From NCBI GenBank assembly GCA_028753945.1, contig JAPNXP010000004.1:1860001-1924000 (forward strand): DNA of 64,000 nt, read 5' to 3'. Under the pieces are notes generated by a model. The model was not told where the DNA came from, ran no database searches, and saw nothing but the letters and a program-made list of their open reading frames with translations. Positions 14,621 through 49,788 of this stretch are shown piece by piece. Position numbers and translations under genes: made by a program. Source of the DNA: Hexactinellida sp. DTS-2022 (Eukaryota > Porifera > Hexactinellida). Numbering within the stretch: the stretch's first letter is position 1; each line of letters starts with the position of its first letter.

Positions 14621-14819
14621 TTAAAAAACGACAACTTTTCAAAAACTAAAACTACAGTTAGCATTATTACATATTATTATTATTCTACAAAGTTCGTCAA
14701 AACAATCTACAGTTCCAGATAGGCTCACATGGCAACAAGATCAAAGTCTACACCAGACTAACCCAAAGACAGTCAAGACAGTCAAGATTCCAATTTCAAA
14801 GGGCTATTTCGTTAGCAAA

Positions 14820-15572
14820 TTGGCACATTGGCTGAGTACTTTGGAAGAGGCAACTGAGGATATTTTAGACACTTTTACGGTTTCAGATCTGAAATTAATT
14901 ATTTTATGTGCACGTGATAGAGAACTCTCATATCGGGACCTTAACTCCTCCGGATATAATGACATTCGCGCAAATCTAACAGAACTAACTGATAATATGG
15001 TACAGTTAAACAAGAAGGTGGAAGCCAACGCCTCCCTTATTGTTGATTCTACTGTTGGCCTCAAAACTTATGCAGAAGCAGCATCAAATAAAGATCCCTC
15101 TTGTGAGCAGTTGAGGAGCCTCCTAAAGGAAGAAAACGCCATGAGAAAACTAGCAGCTGAGGAAGAGGGTGAGAGGAAAAAGAGAGAAAAGAATATTATT
15201 GTTTATGGACTATCAGAAGATATACACTCTTCTGATTGCTCGAAAGAGTTTTAATTAATAGCAGAAGATTTACAACTTAAGCCAAAACTACTAGAAGTGT
15301 ATCGTCTTGGGAAGATACGGGAAGATAATAAATCTAGACCTCTAAAGATAAGATTAGATTCGAAATTCATTAGACAAAAGTTATTAGCCAATTCCCACAA
15401 GCTGAAAAACAATAGAAAATACCACAAAGTGTATCTGAAACCGGATCTCTCAATGAAAGAGAGGAAGTTACAGAATGAACTATGGCTAGAATCCAAAAAT
15501 AATGGCTCTGGTGGACCAAATAAAAAGGTGAGTCTAACCTTAGACGAACCCTCTATCTTGAGTAAAGATTGA
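14820..15572 (+). pseudogene. CR1/L2-like LINE ORF1
   Basis: One frame runs from MAHWLSTLEE through a coiled-coil-prone N-terminal part (SDLKLIILCARDR, NLTELTDNMVQLNKKVEAN), TYAEAAS, a charged linker (EEEGERKKREK) and NIIVYGL, then after an in-frame TAA (15252-15254) continues IAEDLQLKP, VYRLGKI, RPLKIRL and VYLKPDLSMKER. This is a nucleic-acid-binding ORF1 protein with an RRM-like C-terminal part. A TGA at 15570-15572 separates it from the endonuclease region in the same frame. It is a pseudogene through the TAA at least. Confidence 0.75.
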
Positions 15573-16349
15573 TTTAAACTGAGGAACGGATCAAATGTAA
15601 ATTCAATATTTGTTAATAATCCCCAAACAGTTATAGAGCAAGGATCCGTTCCCAAGGATGATTATCATCCCAAAGAAATTACAATCATTGAGGAAGGGTT
15701 AGTTAATACAAACGAACAGTTAAACTTTGTCTACACTAATTGCCGCTCTCTTGGCAATAAAATTTTAGAACTCGAGCAAACAATAGCAGTAGAAAAAGCA
15801 AATTTAGTGGCAGTCTCTGAAACATGGTTTAATGCAGGATGTGAGGTAAGTATACCAGGATTTCACGGTTTTTATTGCTCAAGAAAGTTGCGTAGAGGTG
15901 GAGGAGTGGCTCTGTACATTGATAGTAGTATAGTTTGCAATCCGCAGATAATTGAAACAAATTCTGATTATGACTTTGATGTATTTATTGTCAAGCTGCA
16001 CCTATGTGGTAGGAACCTATACGCAGCTGTTTTCTACCGCCCAACCAATCTTTCATTCCAGGAAACCCAAATAATGTTTGATATTATTAGGACCTTGGTA
16101 AATAAAGATGTAATACTGTTTGGCGATTTTAATTTTCCTGGGATTCACTGGCATTCACATAGTAGTACATTTGTGTACCCCAAGACGCGTGAGGCTATTG
16201 AATTCCTAGAAGTTATTGAGGACTTATTTCTGTACCAGCACGTAAATGCACCGACAAGGCATGGTTCCAGTGGTAGTAGAACTGTGGATCTTATTCTTAC
16301 GAATGACGAAGTTTCTATTAGTGACATATATGTTCCAAACCGCCTTTGA
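15573..16349 (+). pseudogene. LINE apurinic-type endonuclease domain
   Basis: Immediately after the ORF1 TGA, the same frame stays open and reads NFVYTNCRSLGNK, LVAVSETWF, GGGVALYI, VFYRPTN, FGDFNFPGIHW and SRTVDLILT, the motif series of the EEP endonuclease of CR1/L2-type LINEs, which nicks target DNA for target-primed reverse transcription. The first in-frame ATG is well inside the domain, so the native start is upstream or the protein was fused to ORF1. The frame is lost at about 16350, before the RT. Confidence 0.8.
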
Positions 16350-17804
16350 AAGGCAGCGATCACAGTATTCTGGTATTTAATATAGAATTCCCTTCTACAA
16401 ATCTCATTCAGTTGATGTATATTTATATCAAAAAACTAATGATACCCTCGTTTACAAAATTTTTGATGATTGGGAAAATAAGTTTACACTCAATACACCA
16501 ATAGAACAGCCATGGAATAATTTCAGATCTATGTACGATGCTATTCTTTCTTGTGTACCAAGAAAACAAATCTAAAATTAAAAGGTTTTTCTTACTCTTA
16601 AAACCATAGTCTGTGCTTATTTATAAAAATTCTCCGAATCAAGAAACTTGGTTTAATTGCAAAAGCGCAAGAAATAAGGTAGCACATCTAGCCAAATATT
16701 TGAGGCGATCCTATGAAAATTCTATTACTCAACAGTTCAATACCCCGAGAGCAATTAAAAAATTCTTTACTTATGCTAAACATCAAATGGTTAATGTTGA
16801 CAACAACACACGTATATCGCTGTCTGACTCCAATGGGTTATTAACTTCAGAGTGTGTATTTGCGCACCTCTTTTCGGAACATTTTTTATCAGTATATAAC
16901 AACCCTGTGGAGAGAGGCACATATGAAGCTCCTCTGAAAAATGTTGATAACGTCCTTTCTGAAGTAACATTTTCCGAAAATGTTGTGTTGCAGCACTTAG
17001 AACTGATGAACGAATCAAAGTCTCCAGGTCCAGACTGTATTCACCCCAAATTACTCAAGAAGTACTCCATTTTCCTGTACAAACCGCTATACGTTATTTT
17101 TCAAAAAAGCTTAATGTCGGGAATATTACCCGATGATTGGAAAGTGGCAAATATCATACCCTTGCATAAGGACGCACGAGATCAAGCCAAGAACTATAGA
17201 CCCATTTCCCTGACATCGATAATAGTGAAGCTATTAGAATCTATTATTAAGCCATTCTTACTCAATCATCTACTGGAGAATAATTTAATTCACAACAAAC
17301 AAAATGAATTCCTACCAAACAAATCATGTGTATCTAGTTTGCTAGAGACCGTTGAAGACTGGACAGTATCCATAGATTTAGGTTTACCAGTGGATGTATT
17401 ATATATTGACTATGAAAAAGCTTTTGATAAAGTCCAGCATAATATACTTGATAAATTGGATGCAGTTGGGATAAAAGGCCAGTTGTTTATTTGGTTTGAG
17501 TCCTATCTAGCAAATAGAAAACAGCGAGTGAAGATAGAGAAGTCCTTTTCTGATTGGGTTGTTGTTCCAAGTGGCGTTCCCCAGGGTTCGGTTTTGGGTC
17601 CTGTTTTATTCCTCATATATACATATGATACTCCATCAAATTCAGATTATAGTTTATATAAAGTAAATGATTCCACCGGTATATCATGTTTTGCAGACGA
17701 CACTAAACTTTATACGCAGTACTATTCATTCGAAAACTATCTATCCTTGTCCAATAGCGTAGCAAATATTTTAAGTTGGTCGCAGTCGAATTACATGCCT
17801 TTAA

Positions 17805-17896
17805 CACGACGTTTACCACCGATGGGTCACGGAAATGGAACTAAACCACTTTATGCCCATATATGGGCATGTGGGTCACAAGTGGTTATCAGCGGG
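17805..17896. mobile_element. piggyBac-like palindromic MITE inside RT, 92 bp
   Basis: Flanked by ttaa (17801-17804 and 17897-17900). Ends cacgacgtttaccac and, inverted, cccgctgataaccac are imperfect TIRs, with the palindrome atgcccatatatgggcat inside. Removing it with one ttaa restores the expected RT motif MPLNVNKC. With its duplication it adds 96 bp, so the RT frame stays open. Confidence 0.7.
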
Positions 17897-18015
17897 TTAA
17901 ATGTCAATAAGTGCGGGATTTTACACATCGGGAAATCAAATCTGAGATTTAATTACTCATTGAATGGTCGAGTTAAGGAAGTAAATTCTGCAGTTAAGGA
18001 TTTGGGCGTCTGGAG

Positions 18016-18047
18016 GGAGGTTTGAGTGTATATACACTCAAACCTCC
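18016..18047. repeat. Perfect 32-bp palindrome disrupting RT
   Basis: ggaggtttgagtgtat is followed directly by its reverse complement, centred on tatata. It lies in an insertion of about 50 bp between the RT motifs DLGV and VDDRL and supplies an in-frame TGA. No clear target duplication. Confidence 0.75.
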
Positions 18048-18385
18048 TTTACCCGGGCACTTTCGTAGATGATAGACTCTCCTTTTCTAAGCATATTGCA
18101 CATATGTGTCACAGTGCAAACAGACTGATTGGTTTATTTAAAAGAACTTATTCTCTTGTAACTCCAGCTATTTTTAAGATTTTTTATAAAGTTTTGATTA
18201 GACCAAGGTTAGGATACGCAAGTCACGTTTGGTCTCCTTTTCTGATAAAATATATAAACAAGCTAGAAAGGATTCAAAGGAGAGCTACTAAATGTTTTAA
18301 ATGTTTTGCAGCACTTCCTTATATTGAAATATATATATTAGTGTATAGTAGCTGTATAGAGCTCAAGAATAAATTTTGTTCAATA

Positions 18386-19570
18386 ATGTCGGATAATAAT
18401 TTTCCTAATACTAAACCGTTCAAGACGGAAGCTGAGCGAAAGCGCTCAATGCGTGAGAATGAAACTCCTGGCGAAAGAGCTCTCCGTCTTGAGAAGCAAC
18501 GAGAGCGACAAACCTCTCGGAGACTGGCGCAGTCTGACGCAGAGACTGCTATGCGCTTAGAGTGCAAGCGCAAACACCAGGAGGCCCTCAGACAAAGTGA
18601 GTCTGAGGCTGAATCAGCTGAGCGCTTGGAGTACCAGCGAAAACACCAGGAGGTCCTCAGACAAAGTGAGTCTGAGGCTGAATCAGCTGAGCGCTTGGAG
18701 TACCAGCGCAAACACCAGGAGGTCCTCAGACAAAGTGAGTCTGAGGCTGAATCAGCTGAGCGCTTGGAGTACAAGCGCAAACACCAGGAGGCCCTCAGAC
18801 AAAAGTGAGTCTGAGGCTGAATCAGCTGAGCGCTTGGAGTACAAGCGAAACACCAGGAGGCCCTCAGACAAAGTGAGTCTGAGGCTGAATCAGCTGAGCG
18901 CTTGGAGTACAAGCGCAAACACCAGGAGACCCTCAGACAAAGTGAGTCTGAGGCTCAGTCAGCTGATCGCCTGGAATACCAGCGCATACACCAGGAGACC
19001 CTCAGACAAAGTGAATCTGAAAATGAGCGAATTGTTCGTTTGAAGTCCCGGACTCTGTTGTATGAGACGAGTAAGACTCTCCAATCTAAGAGGTACCTCA
19101 ATTTAGCCAGATCACAAATCTCTTTTGAGGTTAGTGATGGTTTGGTTGATGAACATTCAATAGGTAGTATGTCCTATAATTGTTCAATTTGTGATGCTAA
19201 GTTTTGGGAGAGTGAAAAGCTTTCCACAAGTACGAAAGCATGTGCAAAGTTTTCCCTCTGTTGCGGAGAGGGCAAGGTTGTTCTTCCCTCCTTAGATAAA
19301 CTTCCTGAGTTGTTAGACCATCTGCTCACAGCTGCTGATAAATATCCATCTGAGCCAGTTTTAAATTCCATATTTGTTATATGGAAGACCTTTAGTGCCA
19401 TCGAAAACAATAAAGAGTTGATGGCGAAGCTTGTAAGTGGACCTTCTAGAAAAAGACTAGTTGAACTCACGTTGATGTATTTGGAAGATAGTGATAATCG
19501 TGATCCAAGTATTTGGAAGTCTACTTGTATTAGCTGTGGTGTGTTTAGTTGGAAAATATTATCGAGTTAG
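18386..19570 (+). pseudogene. Helitron-type protein N-terminal relic with 23-residue repeats
   Basis: From an ATG at 18386 the frame reads MSDNNFPNTKPF, then charged ERALRLEKQRE-type repeats, then tandem copies (about 18526-19015) of a 69-bp unit encoding SESEAESAERLEYQRKHQE plus LRQ. It then gives CSICDAKFWESEK, FSLCCGEGKVVLPSL and LPELLDHLL, the cysteine-containing N-terminal segment of Helitron Rep/helicase proteins (C-x2-C...CC-x-GKV-x-LP). No rolling-circle HUH or Pif1 helicase motif follows; the tail (PSEPVLNSIFVIWKTF...) is unrecognised and could be a captured piece. A one-base insertion near 18797 and a one-base deletion near 18848 cancel each other, but a TGA occurs in between. It abuts the truncated LINE at about 18330. 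Confidence 0.6.
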
Positions 19571-34830: not shown

Positions 34831-37800
34831 TCAATCATTAAATCGGCGTAAATGAACATACCAATAATAAAAATAATGCGTTAATACAACATTGAATCTA
34901 TATTTGTTATCAGTATCAAATACGTCTTTATAAACAAATAAATTAGTTAAGGATGTATAACTGCTGTCCAATATTTGATGGAAATTTTGATTCATACTTT
35001 CAACAAATCTTTGCGGATATATGTGAGACATACCAAATCTGTTCTTATGAAAATAATAGTAAAGAAAGATTAACGGTTGAGAAAAAAATGTATAGCCATT
35101 TAAAGTAAAACTTGGAGACTCTAAATTTGTCGAGATACAAAGTAACGCATTCCATATTAACTTGTCTTTAGAACCAATAAAATGCACTGTAAAATACTTG
35201 TCATCATACTCAATATCATTAGGATTTGGCTTTAGAAAAATTGAGAGGAAACAAGCCGATTGGAAATATTTGTTCAAATTTGATATAAAAAGAAAATCCA
35301 GGAGTGATTCAAAGCAGGATTTCGAGTTTTCAAAAAAATGAGTTTTCTTTAACAAAAAAATAAGTCCGCCACCCCTATAAAGTTTCGTGAAAGTTTGAAT
35401 GTCACCGCTTATTTCTGTTGGCCAGAAATAATCTGTGTGTATCAAAATAGATTTTAAATTATATGTTTCAGGGACTAAAAACGGTACCCGAAGTCTCCTT
35501 GAGTATTCAGTACCAAGAAATTCATAAATTATGCTTACCTCAGCAGCACATGGTTCATTAGAATGTATGTCTTTTAGGTAAAGAAATTTTCTAGCTATTG
35601 ATAATACGTATAGATGCCTGAATGCTTGTAAAAGATAAATATCATCATAAGAGTTGTTAGGGAAAATAGGGAACAAAGAGATTAAGAGGTATGCGATAGA
35701 ATCGTCGCTAGTCCGTAGGTTGTATTGAAATTTTCCTAGACAGGCAAGTCCGAGAGCCATGTGATATGCCATTTGATTTCCATAACCAACATGAAAATCA
35801 GTATGCTCTTTCGAAATTCTTCTAAGTTTGTAAATTATATTCAACAATTCTGTATCTCCCGTACCACACATTACTAATGAGCATGCAATTAGAGTACAGT
35901 TTATTCTAGAGTCTGAAACAATTTTTGATACGTTTATATCATCAATAAACTGGAGAAGATATCCGCTGATAAAACTATATACAAGTTGATCATGTGATCC
36001 AGCAAATCGTAGCCCAATTGAAAACAAACATCCAACTAAGATTTGAAAATAATTTACTCGTACAACATAAACATCCATACCATCTTGAATAAGTTCCTTT
36101 TTGCTTCGTTTAATATTATCAATTAAAACTTGAGGGATTATTCCATGTAACCAAACTATATTAGGTTTAATGCTGTTCCATTGAACTAGGCAATATGATA
36201 TTGTTTGCAGTATAAGGATGTAAGGATGTATTTCGTCAAGTAAGAAATATGAATTCTTAGGCTTTAGAAAGTTCGAAATTGATTTATCACCAGATTTAAT
36301 ATAAATCATAGCAAGTGCCATTAGCGACCCGGGTCCTATGGACATGATATCAACTCCTTCGTCAGAAATTTGTTGACTGATGACAAAACTATCAAGATCC
36401 TTTTGCTGAAGAGTACCAAGAATATTGTTAGACAGTCTCTCAGCAATTAGTCTCAAAGGAAATGTAGACTTTTCTCTGCCTTTTCCAAGCAGTGTAAGAC
36501 CTAATGCAAACCCAGAAGAAAGACATCTGGACCTTCTGTCGAAAATATTCTCCATTTCACTGCTACTAAAACTTGAAATTTCGTTCAGCAGAACATCAAC
36601 AATATGTCTATTAGAAGTACCTTGATATAATAAACCAACGGAGAGGATTGCGGCAGTTTGTACATTTGGTGAAATTTCTAACTCCATTGAACTCTCGGGT
36701 TGTAATGAACGAACATGTATGGAGAGCATTCGTGTTATATCTTGGTCCATACTTGTACGCTTCGCAGCAGCAATGCCAAGAAGCAAACCAACGAGCGTAA
36801 ATTCGTGCCCTCTACTGAGTAAATCATGCATTGTAAATTTCGATAAAGATGATAGATGTCCTTGCAGTCCCATTGCCATTAAAAACCCAGCGTATTCATT
36901 CTGATGGAACGAAATAGGCTGATTAAATTGTATCCAACTAGTGTCCACATCATTAGAAAATGGATTAAGTGTCAGCCCCGCAGCTACACCATTATGAAAT
37001 TCAGGCCATGAAGTAAGTTGAAGTGGTTTGTCTGTATTGTCGGTCGTAACAGTGGCGTTTGTAGATAAAGCTTTTCCAGTAAGATTAAGAATCGGTAGAA
37101 ATATCTTTTCAGTATGAAGCATATCAAAACTCCCGTAATTAAACATACCACGCCCGATCGGTAGAGCAAGAGAACGGATCAATAGTTTCAAGAGCCTATT
37201 ACTTTGAAGCTCATGAAAATCCTCATCTGACATACTTGGAGATTGTTCAACATCAATTTGAATCTGTTTTGATGAATCTAGTAAATGAAAAACTTCATTA
37301 GCACGATTATCATGAGGAAATAATAAATTTAACACTCCTTTTTGAAAACCAGAACTAATAGAATTCTTTGGTTCAAACATTTCATATTGGAATATTGAAT
37401 TCGAATCAGGAGAACATTTGTCGTGAAAACAAATATCAGAACGGTCTAGCAAAAGATAAAACATATTTGATGCATCTTTTGGAGGATTAAGTCTGCATAA
37501 ATCAAAAAAATTCAGAATTGGAATAGAGTATGGTGGGGAAATTGAGGACAAAAATAATTTGTCAATTTTATGGTGAATAATGAAAGTTGCAAGCATTTCA
37601 TTTACATTGGACATAAAGGATAATGAGTCAAAGTCCTTGCAATATTTGAAATGAAGTTCTCTAGAACAATGTAACAATGAAACATTGTCAACATAAGCAC
37701 AAAGTTGATTAATTGGATATTTTTTATAACGAATAAAGAGGAGTAAATAAATACAGATGATGAAAAACGTCTTCGTAGATAATTGAGGAATATAAGGAAA

Positions 37801-40086
37801 AGGAATACAACTAGAAAATGGATTTATTAGGTGATCAGTTAGCCAATAAAATAAGCTAAATTTCCGCAGTTCTTTATACTTGTCAATTGTGTAAGAATTT
37901 GATTTGACTGTTTGCGATTGTGTTGAGAAATGAAAGAATGACACTAAATGAGAGTAATAATCTAAGTAGTTAAGTGAGAAAGAACAAAAATTTACAAATA
38001 AGAATAAAAATTTAATCAAGGAAACCACTTCATTCATTGAAAATATACCAATCATGATTTCTTCCAAAATTATATGCAATGCGATAAAAATTTTATCAGA
38101 ACAGATTCGAAGCAAACCTGAGATGTCTTTGGTTGGTTTATAAAAATTCAATGTAATCTTAAGAAGTGGTTGAAATTGAAATTTTAGAATTGGCAGTAGG
38201 TAAGCACGCTGTTTGACCAAAAAGTCAATGATATTTCGGTTGGATAGTTCTTCCATATTAAAGATATTGTCCATCCTAAAACCAGTATGCTTTTGAATAA
38301 GGATCAAGAAATCTTGAAAGTTGTAGGTGCAAGTTTTGTTGTTACAAATATAAGTTTCCAGTAAAAATTGATGAAATTCATTGTGCGGTAGAACATGTGC
38401 AAAAGAAGATACTATTAAATGTACTGTACTATCATCTGAAATGTTTGGTACTCTATAGCGCTTGGAAGAACCGTCAAGAAATACCACAGTGATTCTATCT
38501 AAAACTGGATCACATATTCTAATTGGTTTGCTTACATATCCACATACGATTCTACAAATAGGAGTGTTACAAGAATATAAATGCAAAGAAGAGTCAGATA
38601 GATGCAAACATAGCAAAAGATGAAGAGAGTCAAGTGACACTGCGTCCGAAGCATTAATAAAATAGGAATTTCCAAACTCTATCCTTGTAACTGTTAGTGG
38701 CTTTTGAATCTCAAGAAGCCAAACTTTTTCAATCAATGTATCGACAAACACAACAAACTCACGAAATAACAGATCAATGTATTGGAATACCTTCGTCGCC
38801 TTGAAATTTTGTTCATTTTTTGGTTGAGTATAAATGTTTAGCAAACATATTTCCGGTTGAACAGGTACAGTATGCTCATCAAAGGGTGAAAAATATGCTT
38901 GGAAGTAGTGTGATGGTGTTGTCCGAGAAAGAGGGGAAGGAAAAGAAATATTGTTAGGCGATAGTGACCTAGTGCGTTTGAAAGGAGCATTGCCTGGACC
39001 CAATCTTGAATTTTGTTTTTCGATTCTCATTCTTTGATTTGAACCCAAAGCTTTTTGAAATTTGCACTTTGCATCACCTCCAGATGATAACTCGTAAATA
39101 AAATTCCGCTTAACTGTTGCAATTCTCAAACATTCCTTCATTTTAGTAGCTGAAATGTCAATTAACGAAACATTTTTCAATGAACACTTTGACAAATAAG
39201 GAGTGCTTAAATTATCAGGATTGTATAACGTTCTTTTGCTATTAGTATTAGGGGAGGGTGTATATAGTTTTAGAGGTGTATTAAATGGTGTCACTTCAAA
39301 ATGTTGAACTCTTGGAGGAGCAGAACTACTCATTGGTTGATCAAAGTAAATTAAAGAGTCTGTAGGAATAGTATATTGATTATATTCTTTAGAAGCAGGA
39401 ATCATCTGCCAGATAGTATGCTGCTCTAATTCATTATCGTAGGCAATAACAAAGGAAGGATTATTATTCACATGAATGACATCGATTAGTGGGTTGCAAA
39501 AATAGTTCACTAAACCACCTTCATGATTACTATATTTGTATAATACATGACAAGGTTCATTTAATGGGTGTGTAAGTGTAAACAATATTGGTAATTCTGA
39601 ATGTGGCCACTGCCCATCAATTGTCTGGTTTATACATTCCTTAGAATTTAACAATATTTTTTCCTGGTCTGAGGGTTCTCTTTGCAGGATTAAACCAAAA
39701 ACAGAACTCCAAACGCCTTTAATAGCAAAAGGAAGTGCAATATTAAATATATCTTCATCTTGGCTAAATGCTGTAATTCTAGAGCTTTCTACAACACAAA
39801 GACAAGGTAGTTCACCTACTTTAATGCTGTTTTTAGGAAATAAATTTGAAAAAGAGCAAATAACAGCGGCATTAATTTTCGAATCAACAGTAAATGAAAA
39901 AGAAGGTGATCGACGGAATTGGTCAATTCCCCTTCTCCAGTAAATTGTATTATCAATTATTTCAATTTCATGCTCAACAAACTCTTCACTATGATTTAGG
40001 CCTTGTGGGAGAATGAAACATTTAGAATTAGGGGAAGAGATGTGAACATCACAGATAAAATCCAACACAACATAATTATCTGTCAT
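34831..40086 (-). CDS. ANAPC1: Anaphase-promoting complex subunit 1 (APC1)
   Basis: A single open frame of 1751 residues, close to the usual APC1 length (about 1,900 in vertebrates). APC1 is the largest scaffold of the APC/C ubiquitin ligase, joining the TPR lobe to the platform that holds the cullin/RING module; it is nuclear and cytoplasmic and drives destruction of cyclin B and securin. Residues about 30-130 (IYWRRG...FTVDSK) and 450-560 belong to the N-terminal beta-propeller, with a loop of SP/TP-rich sequence at about 280-410. NRLLKLLIRSLALPIGRGMF at about residue 960 is strongly conserved. The proteasome/cyclosome repeats run from about 1029 (FHNGVAAGLTL) through NEYAGFLMAMGLQGHL, GHEFTLVGLLLGIAAAK and AAILSVGLLYQGTSNRH to YHMALGLACLGKF at about 1440. 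The ATG at 40086 is the first after an in-frame TAG ten codons upstream. No intron is needed, which is unusual for an animal. There is no poly-A tract or flanking repeat to mark a retrocopy. Assignment is firm. Confidence 0.95.
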   Translation of the reverse strand: MTDNYVVLDFICDVHISSPNSKCFILPQGLNHSEEFVEHEIEIIDNTIYWRRGIDQFRRSPSFSFTVDSKINAAVICSFSNLFPKNSIKVGELPCLCVVESSRITAFSQDEDIFNIALPFAIKGVWSSVFGLILQREPSDQEKILLNSKECINQTIDGQWPHSELPILFTLTHPLNEPCHVLYKYSNHEGGLVNYFCNPLIDVIHVNNNPSFVIAYDNELEQHTIWQMIPASKEYNQYTIPTDSLIYFDQPMSSSAPPRVQHFEVTPFNTPLKLYTPSPNTNSKRTLYNPDNLSTPYLSKCSLKNVSLIDISATKMKECLRIATVKRNFIYELSSGGDAKCKFQKALGSNQRMRIEKQNSRLGPGNAPFKRTRSLSPNNISFPSPLSRTTPSHYFQAYFSPFDEHTVPVQPEICLLNIYTQPKNEQNFKATKVFQYIDLLFREFVVFVDTLIEKVWLLEIQKPLTVTRIEFGNSYFINASDAVSLDSLHLLLCLHLSDSSLHLYSCNTPICRIVCGYVSKPIRICDPVLDRITVVFLDGSSKRYRVPNISDDSTVHLIVSSFAHVLPHNEFHQFLLETYICNNKTCTYNFQDFLILIQKHTGFRMDNIFNMEELSNRNIIDFLVKQRAYLLPILKFQFQPLLKITLNFYKPTKDISGLLRICSDKIFIALHIILEEIMIGIFSMNEVVSLIKFLFLFVNFCSFSLNYLDYYSHLVSFFHFSTQSQTVKSNSYTIDKYKELRKFSLFYWLTDHLINPFSSCIPFPYIPQLSTKTFFIICIYLLLFIRYKKYPINQLCAYVDNVSLLHCSRELHFKYCKDFDSLSFMSNVNEMLATFIIHHKIDKLFLSSISPPYSIPILNFFDLCRLNPPKDASNMFYLLLDRSDICFHDKCSPDSNSIFQYEMFEPKNSISSGFQKGVLNLLFPHDNRANEVFHLLDSSKQIQIDVEQSPSMSDEDFHELQSNRLLKLLIRSLALPIGRGMFNYGSFDMLHTEKIFLPILNLTGKALSTNATVTTDNTDKPLQLTSWPEFHNGVAAGLTLNPFSNDVDTSWIQFNQPISFHQNEYAGFLMAMGLQGHLSSLSKFTMHDLLSRGHEFTLVGLLLGIAAAKRTSMDQDITRMLSIHVRSLQPESSMELEISPNVQTAAILSVGLLYQGTSNRHIVDVLLNEISSFSSSEMENIFDRRSRCLSSGFALGLTLLGKGREKSTFPLRLIAERLSNNILGTLQQKDLDSFVISQQISDEGVDIMSIGPGSLMALAMIYIKSGDKSISNFLKPKNSYFLLDEIHPYILILQTISYCLVQWNSIKPNIVWLHGIIPQVLIDNIKRSKKELIQDGMDVYVVRVNYFQILVGCLFSIGLRFAGSHDQLVYSFISGYLLQFIDDINVSKIVSDSRINCTLIACSLVMCGTGDTELLNIIYKLRRISKEHTDFHVGYGNQMAYHMALGLACLGKFQYNLRTSDDSIAYLLISLFPIFPNNSYDDIYLLQAFRHLYVLSIARKFLYLKDIHSNEPCAAEVSIIYEFLGTEYSRRLRVPFLVPETYNLKSILIHTDYFWPTEISGDIQTFTKLYRGGGLIFLLKKTHFFENSKSCFESLLDFLFISNLNKYFQSACFLSIFLKPNPNDIEYDDKYFTVHFIGSKDKLIWNALLCISTNLESPSFTLNGYTFFSQPLIFLYYYFHKNRFGMSHIYPQRFVESMNQNFHQILDSSYTSLTNLFVYKDVFDTDNKYRFNVVLTHYFYYWYVHLRRFND

Positions 40087-40308
40087 AATAGGATATAGGT
40101 GAACTAATATTCTCTAACAGACAAAGTACCTAAACAGAACAATATGATAAGATAAATAGGATATCATTCGGTTCAATAATAGTCCAATTAAGTGAAAAGT
40201 AGTTGGAATTAGAAAAACCCCTGTTCTATAGTGTCAAGATTATCAAATAATTTAAGTTGTTCATGCACATAGAAATGAATCACTGATATTGTTAGGAAAT
40301 ATAGCTAA

Positions 40309-40565: not shown

Positions 40566-40698
40566 GCTAAGCCCTAGCTATCTTTATTTTTGGGTTGATG
40601 GTGACACAACACCTCCATATATGGGCATTAAATTCATAGGATGGAAACCATCTGAATAAGGGTCTCATTTCTTATTCCAATGAATTCCATATGATATA

Positions 40699-42456
40699 TA
40701 TAGCAATATTCATTCGCCACAAAAATTTACAATAACACCTTCTCTAATAACGGATTGCATCCTGGGCGTGGATTTTTTAGCAAGACATCAAATTAACCTG
40801 GATTTTTTTAATAGAGTTGCTACTGGACCAAACCTTGGTATAGTAAAGTCTTTGGATTCGCAAGATAGTCCGCAACGCGTGAATCACACTTGTCCAATAC
40901 ATGATGAACAAAAATGTCCAGGATCTTATGCAGTCTTAAGATCGACAGATCAAGAACAAGAAGAAGACTGGGAGTGTTTGGGGGCAATTCCTAGGTATGA
41001 CTGCTCACCTTCGATTGAGTACCCAGACACAGAAGAAGAGTTCTCAGGGATAGTACTGAAGTTTCAAGATCTATTTGTTACTCTACCTGGCGTGGCAAAG
41101 GTCGATCCCTTTCCTGTCCGTCCAGGTAATGCAGCTCCGGTGAAAGTTCCCCCGCGAATGATTCCACAAGCCTATCAAGATGAGATGAAGTCTCAGATTG
41201 GAGAGATGTTGAGTAAAGACGTTATACAAGTTTCAAGCAGTCCCTGGCTTGCCCCACCGGTGTTAGTTGAGAAGAAAGATGGAAGTATACGATTCTGTAT
41301 TGATTATAGAAACTTAAACAAAGTAACTCAGAAAGATGCATATCCGCTGCCGCTCCCGGATCAGGTTCAGGACAAACTAAGCGGAATGAAATACTTCACA
41401 AAACTTGACTTGAATTCTGGGTATTGGCAAATACCCATTAGGGAAATGGATCGTGAAAAAACAGCGTTTTCTCCAGGACCTGGAATGGGACTTTATGAGT
41501 TTAAGGTATTGCCATTCGGGCTTACAGGTGGACCGAGCTATTTTCAAAGAGTTATGGATCAGGTATTATGTGGACTTGAACATTGTAAAGACAATTTCAT
41601 TGATGATATACTAGTATTTTCACCGGATCTGGAGTCACATAGACGAGATTTAATGCAGGTTTTCCTACGGCTTCGTGAATACAAATTGACTTTAAGGGGA
41701 AGAAAATGTGTAATTGGAAAGCAATCTGTTACCTACTTAGGACACACTTTTTCTGATAAAGGAATGGCACCACAGACAAACAAGGTGGAATCCATTGTAA
41801 ACTGGCCACAACCTACAAGTCAGAAAGAATTGAAACAATTTTTAGGCTTAGCGAATTATTATAGGCGGTATATCCAGAACTTTGCAAACATCGCAGAACC
41901 ACTGAATTCCTTGTTAGCTAAGGATATTATATTTTCTTGGAATGCACATGCAGGAAAATCATTCGCAGAACTTGAGGAAAAATTGGCATCGAACCCAGTT
42001 CTAATTTGCCCAAATTTCACGAAAAAGTTCGTATTGTGTACGGATGCGAGTGGAACTGGATTGGGGGGAGTTTTGGAACAAGAAGGACATGTTGTGGCTT
42101 ACTATAGCAGGGGATTGAGGACTGCAGAAAAACATTATAGCACTATTGAATTAGAGTGTCTTGCGATTGTCGAATCCGTGAAGCGATTTCGACATTATCT
42201 ATTAGGAAGGCAGTTCGAAATACTCACTGATCATAAGCCATTAGAATGGCTGGAGAAGCAAAAGAGTGTCGGACGACTATGGCGTTGGGCTGTAATATTA
42301 CAGGAGTATGACTTTGTAATTCGATATCGCAAAGGAACTGACAATGAAAATGCAGATGCTTTATCGCGTTCTTCATATAATTTTGGAATTCTAGCTGGTA
42401 ACGAAAATCACAAGCATTGCTCACGGAATTATCACGTTTACCTACTATGGAAATGA
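40699..42456 (+). pseudogene. Ty3/gypsy pol, 5' truncated: protease end, RT, RNase H
   Basis: The open frame extends left of the first nominal start (a GTG) to at least 40714 and begins with SPQKFTITPSLITDCILGVDFL, the C-terminal half of a retropepsin (ILG-x-DFL). The RT follows: YRNLNKVTQKDAYPLPLPD, KLDLNSGYWQIPI (first Asp), LPFGLTGGPSYFQRVM and FIDDILVFS (the usual YVDD box). RNase H shows LCTDASGTGLGGVL, STIELECLAIV and TDHKPLEWL, ending at NADALSR. gag and the protease active site are absent, so it is truncated. The frame is lost at about 42400, and integrase continues in another frame. Confidence 0.9.
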
Positions 42457-44087
42457 TTAGACAACAACAGCTTGATGACCCTGTATTAGGCAATGTATTA
42501 TATGAGCTCGAGGCTATTCAAACTCGGCTACGATTCTCTGGTGTCAAGTGGAACCAACCGATACTCAAGCGTTTTAAGCAGATTCAATCACAATTACAAT
42601 TAATTAATGGAGTTTTAACTCGTAACTACAAGATTGAACCATTTTCCGACTTACGAAGTGTCATCATTGTTCCTGATACACTGAAACAAGATTTACTATG
42701 TCAAGCCCATGACGATGCCGGTCACCAAGGCGTAGAACGCACTCTTAGTCGTGCAAAATATTTAGGATTTTGGGTTGGAATGAGCTCTGATATCCACGAG
42801 TATGTGACCTCTTGCGAAACTTGTCAAAAAGCTAAACTACCTTTACCGGTCAGAGCCCCATTACTCAATACTCCAATTGGGAGAACGATGCAATTAGTTA
42901 AAGTGGACGTTCTTGAAGTTCCTGTTAGTACAAAGGGACACCGATTCATCTTAGTAGTCGAGGACGCGTTTACAAAATGGCTGGAATGCATTCCAATGTC
43001 TGATCAGAAGGCTGAGACCATTACGAATATATTGGTCGACTTCTTTGCTAGATTCGGTATCCCTGAATTCCTCCATTCCGACCAAGGACGGAATTTTGAA
43101 TCTTGCCTCTTGAAAGAAACTTGTAGGTCGTTGGGAATCCGTAAAACTCGTACTACCCCTTATCATCCTCAGGGAAATTCTCTGGTTGAAAGGAGCAATA
43201 GGACGGTCCTTCAAATGCTCCGATGTTACGGGGAAAAGAACGAAGATTGGGAGAAGTATTTACACTTAGTTTTGCTATCATACCGGACTTCCAAACATTC
43301 TAGTACTGGTATTTCACCTTTCCAATTAATGTATGGGCGAGACCCACCTGTCATAACGCAGTTTCTAACTCCAGCAGAATGCAACCAAACTTCTTATGAA
43401 CAATTCTTGCGAAGGAAACTGTTCGAGATACGTGAGTTTGTCGAAGGGAATTTGGTACAGGCACAGCATAGACAGAAGGAATGTTATGATGCACACACGA
43501 GCTCGAGGAATTCACTAAGGTTTACAGTCGGAGACAGTGTCTGGCTTTCCCTTCCACATTCTGGAGTTTCTAAGAAACTTGCAGACAGATGGGAGGGAGG
43601 ATGGTTGGTGACTCAAGTTAAAGGCCCAGTGGATGTTTTAATTAAAAACACAGATGGTAGAGTTAAAGTGGTTCATGTTAATCGATTACAACCACATGTT
43701 AGACGAGAGGGAAATGGCATTCATAATCTCAACCAATCGCTTATTCAAACAGATCGCAATAAGACTACAGAAACAAATAATTCACTTAATCATTATAGAT
43801 CGTTAGACAATGTAACCGAAAAGAGTCAATCATTACAAGAAGCGACTAATACAAGTCTTCGAATGGATGGTTCACTTCGAAATAGGTCATTTGACGACAT
43901 AGTTCCAATTGATTCTCAACTACAGTTATCTATGGATTCAGATTATAGCTTCATTAACTCGACTCCTACGAAGATGACATCATCTACCCCTAAGCCTGAG
44001 AAACCAAGTGAATTCATAGGAAAAAGTTGTACTCGACCTCAACGTGAACGTCGCTTGCCCAAATACTTAGAAGATTACCAAATATGA
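42417..44087 (+). CDS. Ty3/gypsy integrase with GPY/F-type C-terminus
   Basis: After LTELSRLPTMEMIRQQQ the frame shows the zinc-binding HHCC region (AHDDAGHQGVERTL, CETCQKAK), then the catalytic core with VDVLEVPV (Asp), HSDQGRNFES (Asp) and NSLVERSNRTVLQML (Glu), followed by FTVGDSVWL and ADRWEGGWLVTQV...VVHVNRLQPH, the GPY/F-type module of Ty3/gypsy integrases. The tail to residue 556 is low-complexity and ends RPQRERRLPKYLEDYQI. It is one frame off from the RT/RNase H region, with an overlap of about 40 bases, so it is either a real shift or a one-base mutation. With the 5' end lost, the element is presumably inactive although this frame is intact. Confidence 0.88.
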   Translation: MLTELSRLPTMEMIRQQQLDDPVLGNVLYELEAIQTRLRFSGVKWNQPILKRFKQIQSQLQLINGVLTRNYKIEPFSDLRSVIIVPDTLKQDLLCQAHDDAGHQGVERTLSRAKYLGFWVGMSSDIHEYVTSCETCQKAKLPLPVRAPLLNTPIGRTMQLVKVDVLEVPVSTKGHRFILVVEDAFTKWLECIPMSDQKAETITNILVDFFARFGIPEFLHSDQGRNFESCLLKETCRSLGIRKTRTTPYHPQGNSLVERSNRTVLQMLRCYGEKNEDWEKYLHLVLLSYRTSKHSSTGISPFQLMYGRDPPVITQFLTPAECNQTSYEQFLRRKLFEIREFVEGNLVQAQHRQKECYDAHTSSRNSLRFTVGDSVWLSLPHSGVSKKLADRWEGGWLVTQVKGPVDVLIKNTDGRVKVVHVNRLQPHVRREGNGIHNLNQSLIQTDRNKTTETNNSLNHYRSLDNVTEKSQSLQEATNTSLRMDGSLRNRSFDDIVPIDSQLQLSMDSDYSFINSTPTKMTSSTPKPEKPSEFIGKSCTRPQRERRLPKYLEDYQI

Positions 44088-45139: not shown

Positions 45140-45886
45140 TTCAGTCATGGCGTACTTAATATACGGCTGTGTATGTCACCGAGAAGGCCAAAGTATAGAA
45201 GGTCAGTTTATTAATTTCATTCTAGCTAAACTATGCCTCCTATTGTTATTATTTGGGTTGTATATAAGGTAATCAACCATTGCGAGTCCATTAGAACCAC
45301 TTTTGATAATATGAGATTTGTGGTTAAGCTGTTCAGGCGACATTTCATGGTGACGGTTACAATTTATGTAAATTGTAAAAAATTAAATATCATTAATTCC
45401 AATAATTTATATTACAGGAATTCTAAAATAGGGATTGATTTCACACTCCAAAGGCTACTAATCACAAAATGGCGATATTCTAAATATTAAAAAAATTATG
45501 AAGAACTCACATACTAAAATACAAGTAGCAACCGAGTTACAAATTCTATTTTCGTCCATAAAGCGCATATAATTGCTGGTTTATATATACAGTAGAGCCT
45601 CTGAACAACGGACACTTTGGGACCGGAGTCGTTGTCCGTTATTTAGAGGTTGTCCGCTATTCGGAGGTTGAGCCTTATACTAGCTAATAGTACTATAATA
45701 CACTATCAAATAGTGCTAATACATCCCTAATCACACTGTACATAGTTACTAGTCAATAATTGTCCGCTGGGGCCCCAAGTGGACAAATGGTGAACATGAC
45801 GATTAGAGAACTGGACAATTAGATAACTAGACAATTCGAGATTTTTCAATTAGGGAATTGGACTATAAGGGAACACTACTTGATGA

Positions 45887-47527
45887 CTAAAAATAGTTAT
45901 GCAAGTTAGTTTGCACAGAGTATTGTATCTTGAGATTCGCAACTGAGTCTATGGCAGAGCCAACACTGTTTATGGCTTGAATATTCCCTTTCTGGGCCTG
46001 CAGAAATGTATACACATCTTCAAGTGCCAGTAGAGCCTCCTTGAAATTAGTTACCTTGGATCGAGGTTGTTCAACATCAATATCAACTACTCCTTCTGTA
46101 CCAGTTACTCGATCCGAATCATCAGAATCATTATCTTCATCTTGCTGATCTAGCCCAAGTTCTTCCATAAAGTTGACATCCCAATTTTCATTGTCTTGGT
46201 CTATGAACACAAGGGGGTTATCATCTCCTTGTAGATACTCCTCCAAAGTACAACGATCATCAAAAGCCATGGACCTCTCAATAAGAGTTTGAATCTCTCC
46301 TCTGACATCACATTCAAGAAATGGATCTTCACTATCATCATCATATCCAACAGTAACAACATCCATCTCATCACTTAAGATTCCAGCTTTTCGGAAACAT
46401 TTAGAAATTGTTTCCGAATGAACTAAAGACCAAGCCTCGCTCACCCATCTAATTGCCGAAAGTATATTTACCGACTTGACAACATCAGAAGCAGTATCAT
46501 ATGAGTCAATCTTTGAGAGAACATATCTCAATAAAAATCGACGGTAGTACATTTTGAAATTTTGAATAATGCCCAAATCAAGAGGCTGAAGTTTTGATGT
46601 GGTGTTAGCAGGCAAAAAAGTAATTCTGATATTGCTAAACATTGTTGCCAATTTATCGGGATGACAGCCTGCATTATCCATCAATAGTATAATGAAACGG
46701 TTAGTACCTATCAATCGGCGATTCAAATTTTTTAGGACTGTCTCCATGATTTCCCCAGTCATCCATGCTTTTTTTTGGCTGAAATAATTTACGGGCAATT
46801 CATATTTATTTATTCCTTTAAGACATCTTGGATTTTCAGATTTCCATATTAAAATAGGCTGTTCTTTCGTACCAGCTGCGGAAACAAAGAACGCAACAGT
46901 TACACGTTGTTTGACTTTCTTTCCTCCTTTACATTCCTTTCCCTTTTCCCCAAATCCGCGATGGGATAGAGCCTTCCAAAAAACACCCGTCTCATCCATA
47001 TTCCATATATCTTCCTTTGTGTAGCCCTGTAGAATCTCGGGGAGCCGCTCTTTCCATGAACTTAGGGTTAGTCCCTGCACATCACCTGACTCTCCACAAA
47101 TAGTCAACTGTTTCACATTATATCTCAATTTCCACTTCTGTAACCAGCCCCGAGAACATTTAAAATTTGAAATCTTAATGCGCTCGGCAATTTCTTTAGC
47201 CTTTTCCATCAGCTGAGGTCCTCCTGGAAATATATTCTTCGAGCATGCTAAGATATACCATTCATAAAGTACTTTGTTTATTTCACTGAATTGTGATTTA
47301 CGACCAATCACATTTACATGTAGTCTATCCACAGATGCGTTAGACTCATACATGGTAAGAATTGATTCCTTGTTCTTGAGGATGCTTGCAATTTGAGTCC
47401 TACAACACGTGAAAATTTTCACTATGCTTCTGATACTGATGCCTGGATTCTTTTCAGTGAAGTGAATCAATTCAACTTTCTTCTTCAGGTTTAGAAATTT
47501 TCTCTTCTTTGGTACTAGACTAGTCAT
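45887..47527 (-). CDS. Tigger/pogo-family DDD transposase
   Basis: 546 residues, within the usual range for Tigger transposases. Residues about 5-60 form a CENP-B-type helix-turn-helix (KKVELIHFTEKNPGISIRSI) and about 75-140 a second, Tc5-type DNA-binding domain (CSRGWLQKWKLRYNV). The DDE_1 core follows: WNMDETG (D178), LLMDNAGCHPD (D284) and QPLDLGIIQNFK (D317), with 32 residues between the last two Asp. The C-terminal part is acidic (EEYLQGDDN, DQQDEDNDSDDSD). It would bind the element's ends and cut and paste it into TA in the nucleus. All three catalytic residues are present and the frame is unbroken, so it may be active. Confidence 0.93.
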   Translation of the reverse strand: MTSLVPKKRKFLNLKKKVELIHFTEKNPGISIRSIVKIFTCCRTQIASILKNKESILTMYESNASVDRLHVNVIGRKSQFSEINKVLYEWYILACSKNIFPGGPQLMEKAKEIAERIKISNFKCSRGWLQKWKLRYNVKQLTICGESGDVQGLTLSSWKERLPEILQGYTKEDIWNMDETGVFWKALSHRGFGEKGKECKGGKKVKQRVTVAFFVSAAGTKEQPILIWKSENPRCLKGINKYELPVNYFSQKKAWMTGEIMETVLKNLNRRLIGTNRFIILLMDNAGCHPDKLATMFSNIRITFLPANTTSKLQPLDLGIIQNFKMYYRRFLLRYVLSKIDSYDTASDVVKSVNILSAIRWVSEAWSLVHSETISKCFRKAGILSDEMDVVTVGYDDDSEDPFLECDVRGEIQTLIERSMAFDDRCTLEEYLQGDDNPLVFIDQDNENWDVNFMEELGLDQQDEDNDSDDSDRVTGTEGVVDIDVEQPRSKVTNFKEALLALEDVYTFLQAQKGNIQAINSVGSAIDSVANLKIQYSVQTNLHNYF

Positions 47528-47880
47528 CCTATTAATTAATACAATTCAAGTAAAATTAAGTCAATTCTAATCCCACTCGTCATTATTTTTCTTATTTGAA
47601 AAATAAATTAAGTACGGTGGAAGTGGAACAAGCTTAAAACCCGCCAAGGACTGGAAGAAAAGATTGAGGATTTTAGGTAGATTATAGTGGCAAACTGGAA
47701 ATACCTCGCACTGGTTTCACTGTATAATATTCAATTAATATGTAGTTTTCATTACATTACTTTGAAAATGTGGTTTAATAACAAGTTATAATATTTTTGT
47801 ATGCATTGCTGTCTCCTCAATAAACGTATAAAGGATCAAAGATATCAGGAAAACTTTCAATCATAATTAATCTATTTGAC
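47528..47880. promoter_or_regulatory. Divergent spacer between transposase and HIRAN gene
   Basis: This 353-bp AT-rich gap is the only upstream region available to both genes inside the element, so it presumably holds both promoters. No firm TATA or initiator assignment is made. Confidence 0.35.
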
Positions 47881-48279
47881 ATGGCTTGTAAACACAGCAT
47901 ACCTAAAGAACTGGAACTTTTAGAGATCCAGTCATACATAAGGGGTTACCATGCTTACAAAGACAGTTGGACTCCAGTGCTGGGTGAAACACTTTCTTTA
48001 AAGAGAGAGACGACAAACCCAAAAGATAAAAATGCAGTAGCCGTTCATATTGAAGAGAATATTGTAGGACATGTACCTTATAATATCGCACCATACATGT
48101 CTCGATTTCTAAAGAGAGATGTCAACATCGCTTATGCAAAAGTCATAGGGGAGAAAATTAATAGAGGAGCTGGTTATGGACTAGAAATCCCCTGTATATA
48201 TCAGCTTTATGGACCCAGGGAATACATTGATAAAATGAAAGAAATAATTTACTCTTTGAAGACCAATGGATTTGTATAG
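47881..48279 (+). CDS. Stand-alone HIRAN-domain protein carried by the Tigger element
   Basis: 132 residues from the first ATG. Residues about 18-110 fit a HIRAN domain: SYIRGYHAYKDSW, TPVLGETLSLKRET, NPKDKNAVAVHI, IVGHVPYNIA, then VIGEKINRGAGYGLEIPCIY. The hallmark is the -NPxDxNAVAV- strand followed by -VGHVP-. HIRAN is the N-terminal domain of the Rad5/HLTF helicases, where it binds 3' single-stranded DNA ends, and it also occurs alone. No helicase or RING part is attached here. It lies wholly within the transposon TIRs, divergent from the transposase, with no stop. What is seen is the domain and its location; a role in transposition (holding cut ends, or acting at replication forks) is inference. 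It could also be a captured host gene. Confidence 0.85.
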   Translation: MACKHSIPKELELLEIQSYIRGYHAYKDSWTPVLGETLSLKRETTNPKDKNAVAVHIEENIVGHVPYNIAPYMSRFLKRDVNIAYAKVIGEKINRGAGYGLEIPCIYQLYGPREYIDKMKEIIYSLKTNGFV

Positions 48280-48898
48280 AGAGCTAAATTTATCATAATA
48301 TTGTACATATACTTTGGTAATGATAAAAATCTTCTAGCTATCATGAATTCATGGCGTATCATTATTTCGATATGCATTTGTCCGTTATTCGGAGGTAAAA
48401 AAGTACTAATAATTCAATTCGGGACCCAATCACTGTCCGCTATTTAGAGTTCGGAGTCGTCCGTTATTTAGAGGTTGCTTTTCTATTAGACATATGCTAA
48501 ATTCAATCCGTGCCAAGAGGGTTGTCCGATATTTAGAGGTTGTCCGCTATTTGGAGGGGCCGTTATGGGAGGCTCCACTGTATTCATTCTCATTATATAT
48601 TCTGAAAATGTATACTAAGTATATTATCAAATTATCTTCATTTTCTCGTAGTTCTTTCGACTCGAAATGTATATTTACTATATTTATGTTGTCATTATTT
48701 AAATGGCGCCTAAACAGCATAACCACAAATCTCAGATTTTCAAAAGTGGTTCTAGTTGCCTCGGAATGGTTGATTACCCCATATACAACCCAAATAATAA
48801 CAATATGAGGCATAGTTCAGCTTAGAATGAAAGTTTATAAACCTTTGTGACCTTCTCGGTGACATACACGGCCGTATATTAAGTAGGCCATGATTCCG

Positions 48899-49361: not shown

Positions 49362-49369
49362 ACATAAAT

Positions 49370-49780
49370 CAGAGTGGACCATGAGTCAACATTGGTAACC
49401 CATGACCCATCTGACCCATCGCATTTGTGACCCATGACCCATTGACCCATTGACACATGACCCATCGAGTGACCCATTGACCCATCAAGTAACGCTTTGA
49501 CCCATCGTTTTACCCATTTACCTTTTAAATATCTAATTTTTAATATCTAAAACATTATGTAATACAATGCGACTTACAATATATGTATGATACTTGTCAA
49601 TCAATTAATTTTGGTAAACTTCTAATACAAAAGAAATACCCTGTAATGTTTCTTGGTTAATTTGGTTCGTACTATAACTGGACCAACATCAAAATTCCAA
49701 ATGGGTCATGGGTCATGGGTCACAGAGCCGTGACCCATGACCCATCTGACCCATGACCCATCGACCCATGGTCCACTCTG
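49370..49780. mobile_element. hAT-like MITE made of tgacccat repeats, 411 bp
   Basis: Ends cagagtggaccatg and catggtccactctg; flanks acataaat and acatagat match in 7 of 8 bases. Both arms are tandem tgacccat units in opposite orientation, so the single strand would fold on itself. Confidence 0.8.
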
Positions 49781-49788
49781 ACATAGAT

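Follow-up and report, generated by a model that had tools for sequence, protein, structure and literature searches.

Background

Most complete Tigger elements are about 2.8 kb long and have just one ORF, of about 492 aa, and the catalytic spacing of the Tigger/pogo group ranges over DD29-36D (PMC9219625). CENP-B, POGZ, JRK and several TIGD genes derive from pogo-type transposases (PMC7386202). In HLTF, residue Y93 of the HIRAN domain stacks on the bound dinucleotide (PMC4666394), and the HIRANs of yeast Rad5 are described as binding ssDNA with no specificity for a 3'-OH (PMC7804152). On its own, the HIRAN domain has been published as a dominant negative of HLTF: a piece comprising residues 1-180 inhibits both the removal of Cas9 from cut DNA by HLTF and end resection, and its N90A-N91A version inhibits much less (PMC11237066).

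The window, the whole stretch of 64,000 nucleotides of Hexactinellida sp. DTS-2022 that was analysed, contains a Tigger/pogo element with two genes, one encoding a transposase and the other a stand-alone HIRAN protein. An earlier note on this DNA had stated that autonomous Tigger elements normally carry only a transposase, which matches the published description (PMC9219625), and that no Tigger with such a second gene was known to its author; likewise, our literature search found no published description of a Tigger element carrying a HIRAN gene.

Structure and insertion site of the element

The features of the element and its surroundings are listed below.

45590-48580: whole two-gene Tigger/pogo element, 2991 bp (TIRs, TA flanks, full-length copies, empty sites)
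45590-45601, plus strand: left TIR, cagtagagcctc (read from the sequence)
48569-48580, minus strand: right TIR, inverted, cagtggagcctc in minus-strand reading (read from the sequence)
45588-45589: left TA target duplication (sequence; one TA fewer at the empty site L085)
48581-48582: right TA target duplication (sequence; empty site L085)
45145-45345: left arms of an older palindromic repeat (inverted repeats I1 and I2; uninterrupted copies elsewhere)
48701-48893: right arms of the same older palindromic repeat (inverted repeats I1 and I2)
45632-45668, plus strand: two subterminal direct repeats TTGTCCGnTATTynGAGG (repeat family D1)
48378-48558, plus strand: five more copies of this subterminal repeat by the right end (repeat family D1)
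45887-47527, minus strand: transposase gene, 546 aa, with CENP-B_N, HTH_Tnp_Tc5 and DDE_1, DD32D
45890-45913, minus strand: canonical PIP-box motif QTNLHNYF, the last eight transposase residues, predicted to bind PCNA (motif scan)
47528-47880: spacer between the divergent start codons, 353 bp (from the gene coordinates)
47881-48279, plus strand: HIRAN gene, 132 aa (PF08797; AlphaFold2 and Foldseek; dN/dS between subfamilies)

The matching termini with TA outside both, on which the earlier note had relied, were confirmed at 45588-45601 and 48569-48582, and comparison of the two 12-bp TIRs revealed one mismatch between the ends. The element is nested in an older repeat, other copies of which are uninterrupted and show the empty target; one such empty site (L085) was read, and the insertion point falls inside a TA-rich run. 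The subterminal direct repeats are possible transposase sites, a role suggested by their sequence and position, and the 353-bp spacer is presumed to be the shared promoter region of both genes. When subfamily A was compared with B or C by blastn, the aligned DNA consisted of the transposase and HIRAN, and for B of the ends too; the spacer, in contrast to both genes, gave no alignment of A to B or C.

The transposase and HIRAN proteins

The unbroken DDD transposase that had been noticed on the strand opposite HIRAN proved intact. Its frame is open from stop to stop at 45887-47545 of the minus strand (552 codons), with the first Met at 47527, and Pfam analysis detected DDE_1 (5.5e-37), HTH_Tnp_Tc5 (2.8e-12) and CENP-B_N (2.1e-7). 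The spacing between the second and third catalytic D is 32 in subfamilies A, B and C and 30 in F. Tigger is held to be polyphyletic (PMC7325037), and the assignment to Tigger made here rests on domains, DD spacing, short TIRs and the TA duplication. The PIP box was defined, and its occurrence in pogo and Tigger taken, as in PMC5371812. A strict C-terminal PIP box was found in all nine readable transposases from the HIRAN-carrying families A, B, C and F (2 of 16 C-termini in the scan were unreadable and were dropped), against a chance expectation of about 0.1% per 40 random residues. Three HIRAN-less lineages (E, G and H) also have the strict form and a fourth, D, a loose one; I has no box. Most transposases here end in putative PCNA-binding motifs.

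The 132-residue plus-strand protein was borne out as a HIRAN protein both by PF08797 (2e-6, 28.0 bits; curated cut-off 24.7) and by its predicted fold. The subfamily C protein scored 31.6 bits, above the cut-off, and that of the deep subfamily F 22.9 bits, below it; a PDB sequence search with the deep-subfamily protein gave no match. The AlphaFold2 model of the window HIRAN (mean pLDDT 84) had HLTF HIRAN structures as its top Foldseek matches (best E 1.4e-6), and HLTF HIRAN was also on top for the model from F, the deepest subfamily (E 7.7e-6). D49 and K50, which correspond to HLTF D94 and K95, do not vary across the 14 aligned HIRAN rows, and N46 (HLTF N91) hardly does; the position of HLTF Y93 is occupied by K or V, N90 is not conserved, and Y72 falls outside the computed alignment. 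DNA-end binding by the element HIRAN may be inferred from the predicted fold and the partly kept pocket residues, and the loss of Y93 and N90 makes its 3'-OH specificity unsure. By eye, the loop between strands one and two is longer in the element HIRAN than in HLTF.

Copies, subfamilies and gene pairing

Two full-length copies were identified, at C13:3915533-3918536 (99%) and C11:12352491-12355479 (97%). Within this genome both genes are present in four subfamilies, between which HIRAN identity falls to about 23-37%, and all 23 transposase-HIRAN pairs are divergently arranged. All 20 HIRAN-model matches found in the 112-Mb genome lie in or beside elements of this kind, and 23 of 45 HIRAN places had a transposase place no more than 3 kb away, as compared with 0.17 expected. 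Among the fetched loci, 14 TIR-bounded elements had HIRAN sequence; 11 of them, from four subfamilies and including some decayed ones, have both genes and the remaining 3 have internal deletions. Beyond this genome, a prokaryote scan for relatives confirmed 0 of 59 pattern stretches, and viral contigs yielded three loci at 33-34% identity, none of which matched two transposase queries.

The left-end pattern was matched 561 times with at most two mismatches, far above the number of HIRAN places; the contents are known for a minority of these matches, and left ends of subfamily B, too, fit the pattern when one mismatch is allowed. Nine resolved short copies (pieces 1-81 plus about 2845-2991) have neither HIRAN nor transposase. 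The earlier note had asked whether HIRAN always lies between these TIRs, and would have been troubled by a majority of copies lacking it: HIRAN is there together with the transposase in the 11 of 14 elements and missing, along with the transposase, from the short copies, and by the left-end count most copies do, to the letter, lack HIRAN. Another of its worries, a HIRAN gene confined to this locus, is answered by the four subfamilies that carry the pair. Purposeful retention of HIRAN in transposase-deleted copies was also considered and dropped, the B copies of this kind keeping only the C-terminal part of HIRAN.

Selection on HIRAN and its history

A total of 16 HIRAN frames were open over at least 85 aa, of which 14 were aligned (L024 and L073 left out) and 13 were used for dN/dS (L069 also left out); one further comparison used 10. 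The dN/dS of HIRAN was 0.30-0.39 between A and B (8 pairs), 0.19-0.24 between A and C (16 pairs) and 0.21-0.25 between B and C (8 pairs), at a dS of 0.95-1.9, and 0.46-2.2 within subfamilies (7 pairs having synonymous changes). HIRAN is under purifying selection between subfamilies, with dN/dS of about 0.2-0.4, and the neutral decay that would have spoken against the earlier note was not seen there.

The related Tigger lineages D, E, G and H of the same genome are TIR-bounded and have no HIRAN, so the proposition that every Tigger here carries the gene was rejected. Since these sister lineages move, D having near-identical recent copies, HIRAN is not needed for transposition; it is an accessory gene, dispensable in related Tigger lineages of this genome. 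The best tree does not group the HIRAN-bearing transposases as one clade (AU p 0.045; long branches), and the history of the gene was either an old gain followed by losses or transfer between lineages.

The two-gene Tigger with a stand-alone HIRAN is upheld by its occurrence in four subfamilies, by the divergent order of every pair seen, by the location inside TIRs, by purifying selection between subfamilies and by an HLTF-like predicted fold. From conservation and selection we put at about 0.95 the probability that HIRAN is an old acquisition of a Tigger/pogo lineage, in which it has since been maintained as a functional accessory gene.

Possible roles of the HIRAN protein

End protection, steering of insertion and action at forks, which the earlier note had put forward, are all candidate roles. 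With a likelihood somewhat short of even, free HIRAN occupies the 3' ends arising from transposition and excludes host HLTF/Rad5-type remodelers. The transposase would cut at the TIRs and leave 3'-ended DNA at the element and the donor gap, a cut geometry taken by analogy with Tc1/mariner. Stand-alone HIRAN would bind the single-stranded 3' ends, or transposase complexes exposing them, and would stop the remodelers from stripping the transposase complex or opening the ends to resection, such that a larger share of cuts would end as reinsertion. The constant pairing, the constraint between subfamilies, the HLTF-like predicted fold, the kept equivalents of N91, D94 and K95 and the published inhibition of HLTF by its isolated HIRAN piece speak for this explanation. 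Against it, besides the changed pocket residues and the HIRAN-less sister lineages, are the weaker constraint on HIRAN than on the transposase and the fact that a search with the HIRAN model did not find a host HLTF in this genome.

It is unlikely, though next in order, that the C-terminal PIP box anchors the transposase to PCNA and HIRAN reads 3' ends at forks or gaps, transposition being directed to, or timed by, replication as a eukaryotic analogue of Tn7 TnsE. The strict PIP boxes agree with this, as do a two-hybrid interaction of the pogo transposase with PCNA, a motif kept in Tigger, and the clamp motif and recessed 3'-end binding of TnsE (PMC5371812). K. lactis Rad5 needs its HIRAN domain for PCNA binding, but such binding is reported there for Rad5 and not for the HLTF HIRAN (PMC7804152). 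Moreover, PIP boxes do not explain HIRAN, since lineages without it have them too, in the strict form (E, G, H) or a loose one (D). Slightly more doubtful is a combination of both ideas, a replication-coupled, 3'-end-directed system in which the clamp would recruit the transposase and HIRAN, reading 3' ends either at forks or where the element itself is cut, would block HLTF/Rad5, as a eukaryotic counterpart of what TnsE is for Tn7.

Less probable again is a role as partner or regulator of the transposase, in which HIRAN would bind mainly to this enzyme or to the ends of the element and adjust expression, entry into the nucleus or the assembly of the complex, free 3' ends being uninvolved. Helper proteins occur in other DNA transposons, ISL2EU and Harbinger among them, and the divergent shared spacer suggests co-regulation of both genes; against this, even at about 23-37% identity the proteins retain the HIRAN fold together with the DK motif from the HLTF pocket, which points to a DNA-binding role. 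That the captured gene is a passenger useless to the element is very improbable: in its favour are the HIRAN-less lineages, a nearly neutral dN/dS within subfamilies, based on few changes, and a number of broken copies, but a useful gene too would decay neutrally after insertion, and both the constraint between A, B and C and the pair in four subfamilies argue otherwise. A host HIRAN gene merely next to a Tigger transposase, or an oddity of a single locus, is excluded for practical purposes by the repeated pairing and by HIRAN lying inside the TIRs of near-identical full-length copies.

A Tigger-type element with a conserved second gene may bring its own DNA-repair partner, and the retention of such a partner across deep divergence implies that these transposons are limited by how cut ends or forks are dealt with. 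Natural stand-alone HIRAN proteins could compete with HLTF, which published assays can test. HIRAN genes without known purpose occur in other animal genomes, and two-gene Tiggers may account for them.

Comparison with known systems

The element resembles Tigger in its CENP-B_N, HTH_Tnp_Tc5 and DDE_1 domains, DD32D, length of about 3 kb, short TIRs and TA duplication, and differs from the usual single-ORF description in having a second, selected ORF. Its HIRAN shares with HLTF/Rad5 the predicted fold and the equivalents of N91, D94 and K95, whereas it is stand-alone and transposon-encoded, has no SNF2 or RING, and has not kept Y93 and N90. The extra DNA-acting gene of ISL2EU is a nuclease. Fungal TET/JBP DNA transposons and KolobokP, like ISL2EU, carry an extra DNA-acting gene (PMC12730594, PMC9587614, PMC4482050), but these belong to different superfamilies and have different accessory genes. 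The ciliate Tec and TBE elements of the Tc1/mariner group are related DDE elements with extra ORFs (PMC7325037); they have three ORFs, and the additional genes are not HIRAN but a recombinase in Tec and, in TBE, a zinc-finger protein plus an unknown one. We know of no sequence relation of Tn7 TnsE to the element HIRAN. TnsE is bacterial and the likeness is one of functional analogy only: it too is an accessory protein, one that attaches to recessed 3' ends and couples transposition to the clamp (PMC5371812).

Structure and coding content of the element

Matching termini with TA outside both, an unbroken DDD transposase on one strand and an unbroken 132-residue HIRAN protein on the other had been described in an earlier note, and all of these were borne out by the window sequence:

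45590-48580, the element, beginning cagtagagcctc and closing with inverted cagtggagcctc, with TA outside both ends
45887-47545, minus strand, transposase frame of 552 codons between stops, giving 546 aa when read from the first Met
47881-48279, plus strand, HIRAN gene, 132 aa (Pfam HIRAN match 28.0 bits vs the cut-off of 24.7)

The domains CENP-B_N, HTH_Tnp_Tc5 and DDE_1 were identified in the transposase by Pfam, and its catalytic aspartate spacing, DD32D, lies inside the range of DD29-36D given for Tigger in PMC9219625. The two genes are divergent and separated by a spacer of 353 bp. A 19-bp repeat (TTGTCCGnTATTynGAGG) occurs seven times across the two subterminal regions, and we infer that these copies may be transposase sites. 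Other features were also recorded in the window:

14625-19570, plus strand, endonuclease and reverse transcriptase of LINE-like type, each in its own frame; neighbouring frames gave no Pfam match
34834-40113, minus strand, one uninterrupted 1760-aa frame matching ANAPC1 (6.7e-10) and a proteasome/cyclosome repeat; it looks like an APC1 gene without introns, or a retrocopy
40684-44087, plus strand, reverse transcriptase, RNase H, H2C2 and rve integrase of a Ty3/Gypsy-like pol, spread over two frames that overlap
49369-49781, minisatellite of the TGACCCAT type that has inverted arms

Mobility and copy number

The window element is a mobile element. Among the 40 of 550 candidates that were scored, two further full-length copies were found, at C13:3915533-3918536 (99% identical) and C11:12352491-12355479 (97%). 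The host site of the window copy is the interior of an older palindromic repeat, whose arms (45145-45345 and 48701-48893) have hundreds of candidate copies (683 at first look, 40 scored). When the two flanks of the element were joined and used as the query, 39 of the 40 long matches scored among 683 candidates ran uninterrupted across the junction, and the remaining one was the window's own left flank; the single empty site that was read (L085) had the flanks joined, one TA shorter, within a TA-rich run.

The left-end pattern of the element, which also fits the left ends of subfamily B, gave 561 genome matches with up to two mismatches vs 0 for the reversed control pattern; a minority of these matches were examined. 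Nine resolved short copies consisted of pieces 1-81 and about 2845-2991, with neither gene present. Taken by the letter, such numbers go against the earlier note, which would have given up its reading if most same-TIR copies lacked HIRAN; they say little on HIRAN itself, since the transposase is gone from the short copies too.

Distribution and classification of HIRAN-carrying elements

Four HIRAN-carrying subfamilies were defined by TIR and sequence, namely A (the window element) and the following:

Subfamily B, TIRs CAGTGGAGTCTC / CAGTAGAGACTC
Subfamily C, TIR CAGGTAAACCTC
Subfamily F, TIR CAGTCAACATCCGrTAACTCGAA

Among the fetched loci, both TIRs and TA flanks were located in 14 elements with HIRAN sequence. 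In 11 of the 14 (three of A, two of B, three of C and three of F) both genes are present, some being decayed or having a shortened HIRAN. The other three are B copies that have undamaged ends and internal deletions (C12:2865416-2866660, C13:3884066-3885546 and C4:1878651-1879603); they lack the transposase and retain HIRAN only in its C-terminal part. Compared with the HIRAN of A, the open frames of B and C were about 56-65% identical, and those of F about 23-37%. No HIRAN was found in the six TIR-bounded elements of the Tigger lineages D, E, G and H by frame listings, local search and genome-wide searches, lineage D having three TIR-bounded copies of 2055-2058 bp; for lineages I, J and K, absence was judged from the genome-wide searches alone.

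Searching the whole genome for HIRAN at the protein level yielded 51 matches, which together with one added place from the Pfam search resolved to 45 places, so the gene is not, as the earlier note had allowed, confined to this locus. A transposase lay within 3 kb at 23 of the 45 places vs 0.17 expected at random (the paired copies share descent and hence are not independent), and orientation was divergent in all 23 pairs. Short fragments and internally deleted copies are among the 22 unpaired places; a more local search recovered transposase pieces, also divergent, at two of the 22 (C8:986609 and C5:2415464). Conversely, HIRAN was present at 23 of 59 transposase places, the remaining 36 including truncated copies and HIRAN-less lineages. 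The Pfam HIRAN model gave 20 hits at E up to 1, 12 of them over the cut-off, all in or adjoining Tigger sequence; no host HLTF/Rad5 HIRAN was seen by this model, from which introns or divergence may conceal it. All whole-genome counts are lower bounds. The HIRAN gene is part of the element family.

Selection on the two genes

The dN/dS of HIRAN, which the earlier note had proposed to examine, was calculated by the Nei-Gojobori method from 13 of 16 open frames and was 0.19-0.39 among A, B and C: 0.30-0.39 for A-B (8 pairs, dS 0.95-1.09), 0.19-0.24 for A-C (16 pairs, dS 1.6-1.9) and 0.21-0.25 for B-C (8 pairs, dS 1.2-1.4). The A-F values (0.42-0.63) are near saturation, a level that B-F and C-F exceed. 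Within subfamilies, where changes are few, the ratio was 0.46-2.2 in the seven pairs with synonymous changes and nine pairs had none, the pattern expected of copies drifting after insertion. For the transposase, dN/dS was 0.10 (A-B), 0.16-0.22 (A-C) and 0.14-0.17 (B-C), with dS of 1.6-2.3, and these lower ratios therefore indicate somewhat stronger constraint than on HIRAN. At the DNA level, A aligned to B and C over the transposase and the HIRAN gene (and the ends for B), and the spacer did not align. The A-B dS was about 1.0 for HIRAN and, measured on other B copies, 2.3 for the transposase; this gap may be saturation noise or exchange between subfamilies, and little is read into it because the values are near saturation.

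Predicted structure and phylogeny

The window HIRAN, modelled by AlphaFold2 with 14 element sequences, had a mean pLDDT of 84, and its first 12 Foldseek matches were HIRAN structures of HLTF (best E 1.4e-6, TM 0.62-0.72), with 3k2y and Rad5 coming next. The F protein scored 22.9 bits, below the Pfam HIRAN cut-off; its model (pLDDT 77), from an alignment including A-, B- and C-type rows, also matched HLTF HIRAN first (7.7e-6). By hhalign, N46, D49 and K50 pair with N91, D94 and K95 of HLTF. All 14 rows have D49 and K50, and N46 is close to invariant; the equivalents of HLTF Y93 and N90 are not kept. Binding of single-stranded DNA is thus plausible from residues and model, and strict reading of a 3'-OH is unsure.

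In the HIRAN tree (17 rows, of which only four are outgroup), element HIRANs formed one group, with support of 100/99, apart from HLTF and three viral HIRANs. Over 53-77 residues, small HIRAN-like proteins on viral contigs (L077, L078 and L079) shared 33-34% identity with the element HIRAN. In the transposase tree (17 rows, including C_C1, a truncated copy without its own HIRAN, and K, two joined pieces), the HIRAN-carrying families did not form one clade: A, B and C grouped with D, E, G and K; the partners of F were H, I and J. Branches were long and support weak (85/91), and a single clade of HIRAN-carrying families was rejected marginally (AU p 0.045). Shared place and orientation, together with nearest kinship, tentatively favour one old acquisition of HIRAN followed by losses or exchange.

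Possible function and comparison with known systems

According to PMC11237066, the isolated HIRAN piece of HLTF binds Cas9-cut DNA exposing a 3' end and is dominant negative on HLTF's Cas9 removal and end resection, an effect much smaller with the N90A-N91A piece. A HIRAN piece of this kind made by the transposon could hold HLTF-type remodelers off the transposon's own cut ends. Alternatively, HIRAN may belong to clamp or fork targeting of transposition: a canonical PIP box, the PCNA-binding motif, ends the transposase in every member of a HIRAN-carrying family whose C-terminus could be read (9 of 9, after two unreadable pieces were dropped), and PMC5371812 reports that pogo transposase interacts with PCNA and that Tigger has kept the motif. 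Among five HIRAN-less lineages the box is strict in E, G and H, loose in D and absent only in I. Since these lineages mostly share the motif, the PIP box forms a background to the action of HIRAN and does not explain it. The canonical motif lies at or near the C-terminus across diverse Tigger transposases (A, B, C, F, E, G and H).

Most complete Tigger elements have a single ORF, as stated in PMC9219625. Among the open-access papers listed, none describes a eukaryotic transposon with HIRAN, as judged from titles and abstract starts. Similar stand-alone HIRAN proteins are presumably annotated in other animal genomes. Tec/TBE, the TET/JBP carriers, KolobokP and ISL2EU are, like the window element, DNA transposons with accessory genes; such genes are already known in this class, and HIRAN is a variant on that theme.
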